Below are positions 18,448-51,990 of a DNA stretch of 60,913 bases, one piece after another. The notes beneath the pieces are model-generated. The model had not been told where the DNA came from, ran no database searches, and worked only from the letters and a program-made list of their open reading frames with translations. This DNA is from Mycoplasmataceae bacterium (lineage in GTDB: Bacteria; Bacillota_I; Bacilli_A; Mycoplasmatales; Mycoplasmoidaceae). Within the stretch, counting starts at the first letter, position 1; each line of letters starts with the position of its first letter. The DNA lies in contig JAIRPI010000015.1 of assembly GCA_031257095.1 (NCBI GenBank), positions 1 through 60,913 of the forward strand, written 5' to 3'. The position numbers and the translations under genes are program-made.

Positions 18448-18480
18448 ATATATTTACAAGATAAAATTATTGCCTCTCAA

Positions 18481-18819
18481 TTATCTTAAATTATTTCTAT
18501 TAAAAACATCTATCACGTGCTTATTGAATTCAATTTGTTGTTTAATAAAATCACTAACATAGTTGTTGAATTCAATCTGTTGCTTAATGAAATCACCAAC
18601 ATACTTATTAAATTCTTCTTGTTTTGCTCAACGAGCATCATTCTCAGCGAGACGTTCATTAATTTCATTGATAGCTGGGTCAAATCGTTTTTCAACAAAT
18701 TCCCTAAATCATTTCGGTGCCACGCTAACTCCTTTATTAATTATATGACATTGAAAAGTGACACCGATTCAGTCTTCTCTACTTGATTTAGTTATTTCAT
18801 ATTCGTTATGTTCCTTCAT
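18481..18819 (-). CDS. Repeat-cassette protein, copy A
   Basis: 112 residues. It shares with the genes at 28705, 48747 and 49253 an N-terminal block of about 40 residues: the EYEITKS start, then DWIGVTFQCHIINKG and VAPKWFR. This copy then has a unique middle (EKRFDPAINEINERLAENDARW) before the common QEEFNKYV/DFIKQQ coiled-coil repeats and the VFNRNNLR end. Four in-frame TGA codons are Trp. The upstream module ends at 18840. No signal peptide. The helical repeats suggest a coiled-coil multimer; I do not recognise the N-terminal domain. A loose analogy is the multicopy DUF16 coiled-coil family of mycoplasmas. Confidence 0.7.
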
Positions 18820-18839
18820 TCTTGCATATCTCCATACAT

Positions 18840-18906
18840 ATATTTACAAGAAAAAAACATTTTTTCCTCAATTATTTTAAATATTTTTAAATTTTACGAG
18901 CGTAAA
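18840..18906 (-). promoter_or_regulatory. Cassette module A (palindrome to ATG, 67 bp)
   Basis: Minus strand: TTTACGCTCGTAAA (18893-18906), an A/T-rich stretch, TTGAGGAAAAAATG, then TTCTTGTAAATATATG ending at the first ATG. Same layout as the modules at 28621, 28956, 48662, 49165 and 49587. Confidence 0.8.
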
Positions 18907-28620: not shown

Positions 28621-28689
28621 TTTGCACTCGTAAATCACTCTTTTTGTAAAAATAATTGAGGAAAAAATATTTTTTTCTTGTAAATATAT
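28621..28689 (+). promoter_or_regulatory. Cassette module B (palindrome to ATG, 69 bp)
   Basis: Begins with the decayed palindrome TTTGCACTCGTAAA, then TTGAGGAAAAAATATTTT, TTCTTGTAAATATATATG. The most diverged palindrome of the six. Confidence 0.75.
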
Positions 28690-28704: not shown

Positions 28705-28914
28705 ATGAAGGACAATAAAGAATATGAAATAACTAAATCAAACAGAGAAGACTGAATCGGTGTCACTTTTCAATGTCATATAATTAATAAAGGAGTTAAT
28801 GTGGCACCGAAATGATTTAGAGATTTTGCAGCAAAGCAAGAAGAGTTTAATAAAGCGCAGCTAGAATTTAATAAATACGTAATAGAAGTTTTCCAAAGAA
28901 ACAACCTAAAATAG
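28705..28914 (+). CDS. Repeat-cassette protein, copy B (short form)
   Basis: 69 residues: the shared N-terminal block (DWIGVTFQCHIINKGVNVAP, KWFRDF) and only a short coil (EEFNKAQLEFNKYV) before the common end VFQRNNLK. An in-frame ATG at 28690 would add five residues (MRNVR). Placed directly before the recA module. The small number of coil units compared with copies A, C and D shows repeat-number variation between paralogues. Confidence 0.7.
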
Positions 28915-28955: not shown

Positions 28956-29022
28956 TTTACGCTCGGAAAATTCAAAAATTTTAAAAAAAATTGAGGAAAA
29001 AAATTTTTTTTCTTGTAAATAT
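28956..29022 (+). promoter_or_regulatory. Cassette module C upstream of recA (67 bp)
   Basis: TTTACGCTCGGAAA (28956-28969), A/T-rich stretch, TTGAGGAAAAAAATTTTT, TTCTTGTAAATATATG. It carries no TATAAT box; if it is the recA promoter, recA shares control with the cassette genes. Confidence 0.8.
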
Positions 29023-29043
29023 ATGTATAGAGGTAAGAGGAAA

Positions 29044-30018
29044 ATGAGAATCAATGAACAAAAAATGTTTGATGAAACTATTCGTCAAATCGAGCTACAA
29101 TTTGGCAAAGGCAGTTTAACAAATTTCGAAAAAACTGATCAAAAAATTGATGTAATCCCAACTGGGTCATTAGCACTAGATAATGCTATTGGTGTCGGTG
29201 GTTATCCTAAAGGGCGTGTTGTAGAAATATACGGTAATGAATCTAGTGGCAAAACGACTTTAGCTTTGCAAGCGGTCAGCCAATGCCAAAAAAATGGTGG
29301 CAAAGCCGCTTATATTGATTTAGAGCATGCATTAGATATTCACCATTGTGAAATTAATGGCGTGAATTTAAAAGAATTATTATTGGCACAACCAGATAGT
29401 GGTGAGCAAACGTTTGCTTTAATCGAAGCACTAATTAAAACAAATATGATTGACTTAATTGTTGTTGATTCAGTAGCGGCGATGGTCCCGCAAGTGGAAC
29501 TTGAAGGTGAAATTGGCGACCAAACGATTGGTGTTCATGCGCGTTTAATGTCAAAAGGGTTAAGGGTTATTCAAGGAATGCTCGCCAAACACAACACGAC
29601 CATAATTTTTATTAATCAGATTAGGGAGAAAATTGGGGTAATGTATGGCAATCCAGAAACTACAACTGGTGGAAGGGCATTAAAGTTTTATGCTTCTTTA
29701 AGAATTGAATTACGAAAAACAGAATTATTAAAGTCTGGTAATGATTGTATAGGAATTAAAACGTGCGCTAAAATTACTAAAAATAAAGTGGCTCCACCAT
29801 TATTTAAAGCAATGATTGATATATATTTTGATAAGGGTATTGACCACACCTTAGAAATTATTGATTTTGCCATAGAAAAAGGGGTGATTGAAAAGAAAGG
29901 TTCATGATTTTATTTCAATGAAGAAAAGATTGGACAAGGGCGTGAAGCTACGAAAAAAACATTAATGGAAAATCAAGAATTATTTAACAAGGTTAAAGAG
30001 GCAACGCTAAACAAATAA
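29044..30018 (+). CDS. recA: Recombinase RecA
   Basis: 324 residues from the ATG at 29044, which has AAGAGG just upstream; the in-frame ATG at 29023, at the end of the module, would add seven residues (MYRGKRK). Walker A is GNESSGKTT; also IPTGSLALDNAIGVGGYPKGR, DSVAAMVPQVELEGEIGD and INQIREKIGVMYGNPETTTGG for L1/L2 and Walker B regions. An in-frame TGA gives the conserved Trp of GSWFYF. It catalyses strand exchange in recombination and repair. The upstream cassette and module are described separately. Confidence 0.96.
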
Positions 30019-48661: not shown

Positions 48662-48728
48662 TTTACACTCGTAAAATCTTAAAATTTTAAAAATATTTAG
48701 GGAAAAAATATTTTTTTCTTGTAAATAT
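48662..48728 (+). promoter_or_regulatory. Cassette module D (67 bp)
   Basis: TTTACACTCGTAAA, A/T-rich stretch, TTCTTGTAAATATATG. A conserved GATGATTTAAAAACA-like sequence precedes it, as in the other modules. Confidence 0.8.
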
Positions 48729-48746: not shown

Positions 48747-49124
48747 ATGAAAGAGAATAAAGAATATGAAATCACTAAATCAAGTAGAAGGGACTGAATC
48801 GGTGTCACTTTCCAATGTCATATAATTAATAAAGGAGTTAACGTGGCGCCAAAGTGATTTAGGGATTTTGCAACAAAACAAGAAGAATTTAATAAATATG
48901 TTGGTGGTTTTATTAGGAAACAAGAAGGGTTTAACAATCAGCAAACTGAATTTAATAAACATGTTAATGATTTTATTCAACAACAACTCGAGTTTAATAA
49001 ACAACAGACTAAATTCAACAACCGAGTTAATGATTTTATGGAACAACAAGTTGCGTTTAACAGCCAACAAACCGAATTCAATAAACATGTGCTAGATGTT
49101 TTTGAAAAAAACAACATAGAATAG
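48747..49124 (+). CDS. Repeat-cassette protein, copy C (long form)
   Basis: 125 residues: the shared N-terminal block, then the longest coil of the four copies, alternating FNKHVNDFIQQQ and FNKQQTKFNNRV units, ending VFEKNN. An in-frame ATG at 48729, at the module end, would add MCRRDG. The repeat units resemble hendecads of a coiled coil. Near-identical over the first 60 codons to copy D, so recent duplication or gene conversion is likely. Confidence 0.7.
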
Positions 49125-49164: not shown

Positions 49165-49232
49165 TTTACGCTCGTAAAATTTAAATATATTTGAAATAAT
49201 TTGAGAAAAATAGGTGAAATTCTTGTAAATAT
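49165..49232 (+). promoter_or_regulatory. Cassette module E (68 bp)
   Basis: Perfect TTTACGCTCGTAAA palindrome (49165-49178), then TTGAGAAAAATAGG and TTCTTGTAAATATATG. Confidence 0.8.
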
Positions 49233-49252
49233 ATGTATGGAGATATACAAGA

Positions 49253-49546
49253 ATGAAAGAAAATAAAAAATATGAAATAACTAAATCAAGTAGAAGGGAC
49301 TGAATCGGTGTCACTTTCCAATGTCATATAATTAATAAAGGAGTTAACGTGGCGCCAAAGTGATTTAGGGATTTTGCAACAAAACAAGAAGAGTTTAATA
49401 AATATGTTGGTGGTTTTATTAGGAAACAAGAAGAATTTAATAAAGCGCAGCTAGAGTTTAATAAATATGTTGGTGATTTTATTAAACAGCAAATTGTATT
49501 TAATAAGCACGTGACAGATGTTTTTCAAAGAAACAACCTAAAATAA
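49253..49546 (+). CDS. Repeat-cassette protein, copy D
   Basis: 97 residues with the shared N-terminal block and three coil units (EEFNKYVGGFIRKQ, LEFNKYVGDFIKQQ, VFNKHVTDVF), ending QRNNLK as in copy B. The ATG at the module end is out of frame here, so the start at 49253 must be used, which supports the equivalent internal start in the other copies. Confidence 0.7.
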
Positions 49547-49586: not shown

Positions 49587-49653
49587 TTTACGCTCGGAAA
49601 ATGTATTTTTTTAAAAAAAATTTGAGGAAAAAAATTTTTTTTCTTGTAAATAT
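49587..49653 (+). promoter_or_regulatory. Cassette module F upstream of the 778-residue gene (67 bp)
   Basis: TTTACGCTCGGAAA, as before recA, then TTGAGGAAAAAAATTTTT and TTCTTGTAAATATATG. Confidence 0.8.
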
Positions 49654-51990
49654 ATGTGTATGCGTTGAATATATGTAGCAATCATTAGTACCAATTTGGG
49701 AAGTTTGAGCGTCGGCTATCATAGTAGCCATAATCACAATGTGGTTTATAGTGATGATAATAAATGGAATTTTTCCACCAATCAATTAATTTATTATCGT
49801 TCAGTTAAAGATGAATATAATGTTCGAAGAAACAAAGCAATAGATTTTCAGTTAGCGTTAAAAAATATGTATCTATCTAACTATAACAACGTTAATATAT
49901 CGTTAGCATGTCAGAAACTGCAACAAACAACAAGTGTTAATAGTGATGGTGATGTAGGTATATACATACCATACGATTTTAATACATTCAAAAGTGATTT
50001 AGATAATAATCGTGTTTTTAATTGGAATAATCGACTTGAACCGTATTTATATATTAATTCCACCCAACAAGATATGTCTTTTGGTTATTGCCCGACACAA
50101 TTGTATTTAAAAAATGAATTAATATTAGACAAATCATTACCACTATATAACGCTAATAGTTCGGTTACTTTTGTCGATGAAAATAAACAAGTAACAGATT
50201 TTAACGACTTAACGGCAATAAGGCAATATTTCGAGGACCTTAATGCTAACAACGATAATGGTCAGTTATACGGAATTCCTTATTCACGTTTTAGATTAAT
50301 GGTTATGGTTTATAACGTTTTTGTCCCATTTAAAGCCGTCGCTTTAGCATTTTTAGGAAATTTTAATGGTTCTAGTGCTCCATATTTACCTGTATCATTA
50401 GCACAAGACACAATACCTATTACTAAGAAAATTAGTTTTGATAATTTATTAGCCATCAAACAAGCAAATTATGATGATAAATCAATTACGATTGGGTTTG
50501 ATGATGATTTTTTGCATGAAATGGAAACGATGCAGCAAGACACTCAAAACATATGTGCGCAAATCAAACCAACCATTGAATCTTCTGCTAAATATAAAGA
50601 CTTTACTAAATTTAACTTGCTTGTGAAAATGAATTTATTAGATAAAAATAATATCACTCCCTTTATTTCATATTTAAACTCACTTTCCTGTTTTGATTTT
50701 GTCAATTGTGTTAATTGACTAAAACAATTTACTACATCATTGCAAAACGAAGCGCAATCGTATGGATGAGGCAAATACGACAACCCTTATGAAATTTGAA
50801 ATGAAATAAAAAATAAAGAAAATTATTCAATCGAATATGCAACCACTGATGAAAATAATAAAAATCAGTGGCAAACAAAAATTATTAATAATCTTTCTTA
50901 TGATGAATTGTCAAAAGGCATTAAAATTTTGTTAAACGAAAATAATAATCACGAATATAAAATTAAATTCATAAGATTTGATAACCAAGCATTAGTAAAT
51001 AATGATGCATTTATTCAGTACACATCAACTAACAAAATTACAAATAATACCCAAAATATTGAAAACGAGCCAGACAATATTTTCAAATTGTCAGATATGA
51101 AAATTACTAGTGTTTCATATAAAACAAATAATTTAGCTTGAAATGAACAATTTACCCCTTCGTCACTTGATGATGAAATCTTAATTGACACCTACGCTAT
51201 TTTAATAACTAACTACAATACAATTGGTAATTATAAAATGCTTGACAAGGATGATTACAATATTGTTCGTAATGATTTGGCTGGTGAAATAATAATTAGC
51301 ATTAAAGTGAATGGAATGAATGTTTCAACAACATTAAATGGATTTAAAGTTATTCCTGAAAAAATTGATGATGTTGTTAATAACGAACCAAACATATCTG
51401 TTGCTGATATTGATGAATTGATGCTAAAAAAAATTCTTGTTAACAACAATTACGATCCCTACCTTGTTGATGTTTTATCTTTTTCGTTTATCGAATTTGA
51501 TTATGCAAAAGGAACTTGTTTAGTTGAAATAACAAAATGTGAACGTCCTGATTGAGCGGGCTTTTTTGATAACCAAAAATTTACAGTTTCTAATTTATTA
51601 CCTTTTTATATAAATCAACGCACAAATCTAAATGGTGATATTATCAAGATGAAGCCAAGTCAAATTAATAATGAAATATTTTTTAATTCATTAGTTGATA
51701 TGAGCGAAGGCTTTATCAATCAAAATCTAGATAATGTTCAGGTTAAACTATATCCAAATGATAAAAAAGAAACACTCAATACATCAGTGACATATTTTCA
51801 GAAAAATATTAATAAGTGAGCAACAAAAGAATTTAATTACAATTTTAACGTAAAAACCAATGTTGCGTGATATGTTTGGTTAATTATTGGTTTATTATTC
51901 TTAGCCTTTATCATTATTAGCGTTGTCACTTGAATCCCTAAATTAATTAAAAAAATCAATATTGCAATCAAAAAGCGTAAACAAATTTAA
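49654..51990 (+). CDS. Large surface protein with C-terminal anchor
   Basis: 778 residues with Trp TGA codons. A short hydrophobic N-terminus (RWIYVAIISTNLGSL) may be a signal; about 700 residues of Asn/Asp-rich outside sequence follow; the C-terminus is a membrane segment (WYVWLIIGLLFLAFIIISVV) and a basic tail (KKRKQI). I placed the start at the ATG ending module F. No family is recognised. Its 3' end overlaps that of mtaB by four bases. Confidence 0.65.

Follow-up and report, generated by a model that had tools for sequence, protein, structure and literature searches.

A promoter-like module shared by recA, ruvAB and a multicopy coiled-coil gene family in an uncultured Mycoplasmataceae genome

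How is recA controlled in a bacterium that has no LexA? Mycoplasmas are such bacteria, and their control of recA has one worked example, the sigma-20 factor of Mycoplasma genitalium. The question is raised by a recA locus in a 60,913-nucleotide stretch of DNA (the window) from an uncultured Mycoplasmataceae genome (G000), which is 83% complete, uses genetic code 4 with TGA read as tryptophan (W295 of RecA) and has a Mycoplasmataceae MAG as the closest named relative found. An earlier note on this DNA described a 14-bp palindrome ahead of recA and interpreted it as a possible SOS-like operator. From comparisons of upstream sequences and gene sets, we think it likely that the site instead forms the upstream end of the promoter module of a homologous-recombination regulon, and that this regulon is governed by an alternative sigma factor, for which the protein P0007 is the leading candidate.

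All six copies of the palindrome lie where the note placed them, with the mismatches it gave: 18893 and 49165 are perfect, 28956, 48662 and 49587 carry one mismatch and 28621 carries two. They are not free-standing palindromes, as each forms the head of a repeated promoter-like module of ~110 bp, the copy at 18893 being on the minus strand. The window is laid out as follows.

28956 to 28969, plus strand: head of the recA module (TTTACGCTCGGAAA), which varies asymmetrically and lies 54 bp ahead of the TTCTTG block
28991 to 28996, plus strand: putative -35-like block of recA, TTGAGG, the start of the conserved TTGAGGAAAAA
29010 to 29024, plus strand: putative -10-like block of recA, TTCTTGTAAATATAT
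29030 to 29033, plus strand: likely Shine-Dalgarno sequence of recA, GAGG, read directly
29044 to 30018, plus strand: recA, with TGA as tryptophan at codon 295 of the longer frame
28621 to 28634, plus strand: head TTTGCACTCGTAAA before a coiled-coil family gene
28656 to 28689, plus strand: promoter core of the 28621 module
28705 to 28914, plus strand: 69-aa coiled-coil family gene, the immediate upstream neighbour of recA
18893 to 18906, minus strand: head TTTACGCTCGTAAA, perfect
18838 to 18871, minus strand: promoter core of the 18893 module
18481 to 18819, minus strand: 112-aa coiled-coil family gene
48662 to 48675, plus strand: head TTTACACTCGTAAA
48697 to 48730, plus strand: promoter core of the 48662 module
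48747 to 49124, plus strand: 125-aa coiled-coil family gene
49165 to 49178, plus strand: head TTTACGCTCGTAAA, perfect
49200 to 49234, plus strand: promoter core with the second spacer type (TTTGAGAAAAATAGGTGAAATTCTTGTAAATATAT)
49253 to 49546, plus strand: 97-aa coiled-coil family gene
49587 to 49600, plus strand: head TTTACGCTCGGAAA before the 778-aa gene
49622 to 49655, plus strand: promoter core of the 49587 module
49654 to 51990, plus strand: 778-aa protein with a C-terminal hydrophobic segment, a probable surface protein without a family match
18448 to 18462, minus strand: degenerate extra core ATCTTGTAAATATAT, without a head

Decayed copies are also seen. Between 18216 and 18462 of the window, on the minus strand, a degenerate core is followed by an apparent frameshifted small gene (GGYAFNTEILNGKCRVAITTVATRAKAVDVVAQVIKTK in one frame), and elsewhere in G000 (L016:9096-9160; G000:C22:29097) a head and a broken core (TTTGAGAAAAATAGGTG, then divergent sequence) precede a truncated family gene.

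The core of the module consists of a conserved TTGAG(G/A)AAAA block, a spacer and a TTCTTGTAAATATAT block, and sits just 5' of the ribosome-binding site. At least 33 copies were counted in G000 and none in reversed controls; the count depends on choosing copies by their TTCTTG block, and some of that block's conservation follows from this choice. The core is better conserved than the head and comes with two spacer types of near-equal length. By position, the TTGAGG block would be -35-like and the TTCTTGTAAATATAT block -10-like, TTGAG and CTTGTAAAT being the predicted functional promoter blocks, and a sigma-70 promoter scan returned no sigma-70-type (SigA-like) site over the module. Could these blocks work at the RNA level instead, by forming a leader structure or affecting mRNA stability? 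Their closeness to the start codon fits that idea, but two separate conserved blocks flanking a variable spacer of near-constant length are the typical arrangement of a promoter, and we regard an RNA role as highly improbable. The note had put the palindrome 54-67 bases before the ATG; the distance measures 70-74 bases, and it is the interval from head to TTCTTG block that is fixed, at 54-55 bp. The shorter count probably ran to an ATG inside TAAATATATG. ATG 29023 falls within the recA promoter core, and recA starts at ATG 29044, behind the GAGG at 29030-29033.

What, then, is the head? Within the 61-kb AT-rich window the bare pattern with up to two mismatches is found six times against 4.1 expected, and 27 of 100 shuffles reach six. 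Genome-wide, with at most one mismatch, there are 26 sites against two in the reversed control, and all eight perfect copies sit in modules; counts in G000 that use loose criteria are lower bounds, since they were drawn from stretches around hits. Of 34 core copies, 29 have a head upstream of TTCTTG, the interval being 54-55 bp except ahead of the MPN313-family gene, where it is 44 bp. Such an excess over the control and such regular placement could also arise if the palindrome were the operator of a dimeric repressor or activator, whether of SOS type or not, that regulates an ordinary SigA promoter, and eight of the 29 heads are perfectly two-fold symmetric. An operator of this kind should keep both arms, and the heads do not: the central CT is effectively invariant (28/29 and 29/29 heads), position 11 has G in place of T in ten of 29 and position 6 differs in eight, with no compensatory change in the opposite arm across all 29; the recA copy reads TTTACGCTCGGAAA and the ruvA copy TTTACTCTCGGAAA. 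Moreover, five cores have no head, the head was not found upstream of recA, ruvA or rrlA in the related species tested, and the core lacks a SigA-like site. With LexA and HdiR undetected as well (see below), we consider a dimer operator unlikely, and the SOS reading of the palindrome is not supported: the site is only the head of a longer module with a more conserved core. Because its variation is asymmetric, goes uncompensated and the element is missing from relatives' promoters, the head is probably a directional upstream promoter element. The note's argument from conservation in six modules survives in part: recA and other genes do have a conserved cis-regulatory sequence ahead of them, but the palindrome is not the property that is conserved.

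The genes behind the module fall into two groups. It precedes all 28 starts of a small coiled-coil family for which no credible family was found in Pfam or NCBIfam. Five non-family genes or operons also carry it: recA; ruvA-ruvB, on contig C21; an OB-fold gene, whose product is SSB-like on a weak OB-fold match; an MPN313-family gene divergent from ruvA; and the gene of the 778-aa membrane protein, which has no match in Pfam, NCBIfam or PDB. The 778-aa protein (49654-51990) has hydrophobic segments at both its N-terminus and its C-terminus and sits under this recombination promoter. The MPN313-family matches are below the curated cut-off, so the family assignment is of moderate strength; by locus order the gene corresponds to RrlA of M. 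genitalium, MG220 being MPN313 since mraZ is MG_221 in one genome and mpn314 in the other.

Several smaller observations concern these genes. The OB-fold gene followed by a coiled-coil gene (MAKQYKI(T/V)KAT...) is a conserved pair in G000 and G005 (L068, L051), and between the MPN313-family gene and ruvA (L069:1882-2415) lie two small, nearly identical genes that belong to a different coiled-coil family (MARYKIVKCPNNEQLVG...). The RrlA/MPN313-family proteins (alignment A3; G000:C21:16145-16390, L153) begin with a leader of double-glycine-like type (MRILTKEEKQNINGG in L164, for example), after which comes a hydrophobic stretch, and three members weakly match the class IIb bacteriocin model TIGR03949 (best E 4.8e-4).

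In another explanation, the module is simply the 5' part of a repeat family that moves or duplicates, and the copies before recA, ruvAB and others are by-products of its landings, with no regulon at all. Every one of the 28 family genes carries the module, the flanks of the modules are repeated too, and a family gene lies directly upstream of both recA and the 778-aa gene, so that the module could have spread with the family in G000. However, the recA and ruvA modules, on different contigs, are mutual best matches (80/87 identical) and closer to each other than to any family copy, even though a family gene adjoins recA, and the non-family targets found are mainly recombination genes.

Comparison with relatives of the same genus weighs further against landings as the explanation. 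The module sequence itself is not conserved there; instead, the element common to recA and ruvA differs from species to species. Scored against the ruvA upstream regions of other species, the recA-ruvA pair from the same genome was best in ten of 16 genomes (permutation p 5e-5, the smallest value possible with 20,000 permutations), and in six of the 16 species it does not rank first. Control upstream regions, taken from other genes of these genomes, mostly have far lower scores, and the single high control (G010) is an alternative start of recA itself. Sharing extends to rrlA, both with recA (p 5e-5; 1e-4 without G000) and with ruvA (p 2.5e-4). As the coiled-coil family was detected in only four other genomes, and weakly, the sharing among recA, ruvA and rrlA is independent of it, occurring in species where no family was detected. 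We therefore hold the landing explanation to be rather unlikely. Species-specific elements shared by recA, ruvA and the MPN313-family gene show, at the level of upstream sequence, a co-regulation of recA, ruvA and rrlA that is conserved among species of the genus while its sequence drifts fast.

Which regulator might read the module? The note's remark that no LexA-type site lies near recA holds, with seven weak LexA-box matches against 7.5 expected and none near recA. The LexA-like regulator that it suggested looking for did not appear: no Peptidase_S24 protein (LexA/HdiR) scored above cut-off in G000 or 39 relatives, while ten of 14 control genomes pass, in agreement with the reported absence of LexA and HdiR from Mollicutes (PMC4007778). 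Its further suggestion, that a different regulator may control recA, gains support in the form of unusual coordinated control, and the co-regulated set together with a second sigma factor points to sigma-factor control. This second factor is P0007, a 209-aa protein encoded downstream of sigA (G000:C17:8430-9056). It was first noticed as a neighbouring ORF, since Pfam sigma region 2 alone matched only SigA; P0007 does match the sigma70-ECF and SigI models. It has sigma-70 regions 2 and 4 and resembles SigH most by profile and by fold: the best PDB profile match of its alignment with 12 orthologues (A2) is sigma-H (3mzy, E 3.5e-10), and its predicted structure (pLDDT 83) has RPSH, in an RPSH-RPOB model, as top Foldseek match (E 3e-4), with sigma factors throughout the structural list. 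Matches occur in 25 of 25 genus genomes, one of them partial, and P0007 has only 16-21% identity to its orthologues even inside the genus. About a dozen of the sigma-factor loci have cysS-rlmB or secE-nusG as neighbours; in several relatives the gene lies between the two pairs, which mark the sigH neighbourhood of Firmicutes (PMC3364868), and in G000 it has moved next to sigA.

The regulon is conserved, its core is not of the sigma-70 type and the genus has a second sigma factor throughout; from this association we infer that P0007 reads the module. The published sigma-H consensus RNAGGAWWW / RNNGAAT (PMC8510167) shows no enrichment ahead of these genes, since 92 of 100 shuffles reach the same level, so the promoter specificity of P0007 must differ if the sigma-factor model is right. 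No module was seen upstream of the P0007 gene itself. In the mechanism that we propose, TTGAG(G/A)AAAA and TTCTTGTAAATATAT would be the -35 and -10 elements recognized by an alternative sigma factor, most probably the SigH-like P0007 beside sigA. The 14-bp head, which lies ~30 bp ahead of the -35-like block, would serve as a directional upstream element that the G000 species has added, contacting an activator or RNA polymerase. The module would drive recA, ruvAB, the OB-fold SSB-like gene, the MPN313/RrlA-family gene, the large membrane protein and the multicopy coiled-coil family, and once the sigma factor is activated, the recombination genes and the repeat family would be induced jointly.

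This model is close to a known system. In M. genitalium, sigma-20 activates recA, ruvA, ruvB and rrlA, RrlA being mg220 (PMC9262362, a review for the sigma-20 facts), and MPN626, the M. pneumoniae orthologue of sigma-20 (MG428), is also called a sigma factor (PMC12494982). The two systems have in common the coordinated control, without LexA, of recA, ruvA, ruvB, rrlA and genes of unknown function; in G000, too, a single promoter type, unlike that of sigma-70, stands before recA and ruvAB, rrlA belongs to the set within the moderate confidence of its assignment, and an alternative sigma factor is present as the putative regulator. However, G000 represents another, uncultured lineage, with a head element, at least 28 coiled-coil genes and a promoter sequence that differs between species. 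By its gene set, the system is best read as a recombination regulon of the sigma-20 kind that occurs in a new lineage, has gained a repeat family and uses species-specific promoters. The comparison suggests that a whole uncultured genus follows this regulon logic, with a candidate sigma factor whose ancestry is traceable to the sigH locus and with a large small-protein family added to the set. Since species differ in promoter code but keep the gene set, sigma-promoter co-evolution becomes directly testable.

Other systems resemble this one in part. The P0007 family shares profile, fold and locus (cysS-rlmB ... secE-nusG) with the SigH/ComX factors that control competence in other Firmicutes (PMC3364868, PMC3486894), but no com genes were seen among the G000 module targets, the sigma-H consensus is not enriched and identity falls to 16-21% within the genus. 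One could speculate, with little confidence, that a SigH/ComX lineage in Mollicutes turned from sporulation or competence to homologous recombination, that its promoter code drifts per species with the fast-evolving sigma factor, and that RrlA is exported as a peptide that ties recombination to cell-cell signalling or to bacteriocin-like activity. The LexA/HdiR SOS response likewise has recA among its targets, whereas G000 presents no detected repressor, LexA box or palindromic covariation. In M. gallisepticum, vlhA is a multicopy family whose promoter is not of the sigma-70 type and carries an additional upstream element, with an alternative sigma factor suspected (PMC5138195), much as the coiled-coil family of G000 has such a promoter and upstream element; vlhA differs in its variable GAA repeats and in having no shared control with recA reported in the passages that describe it.

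The neighbourhood of recA varies among genomes. In the closest relatives a conserved gene for a ~236-aa membrane protein precedes recA, where G000 has a coiled-coil gene (L018-L022, L074). Coiled-coil genes stand beside recA in G008 and G012 as well, and a similar coiled-coil-like gene lies directly before ruvA in G001 (L048, L049, L095).
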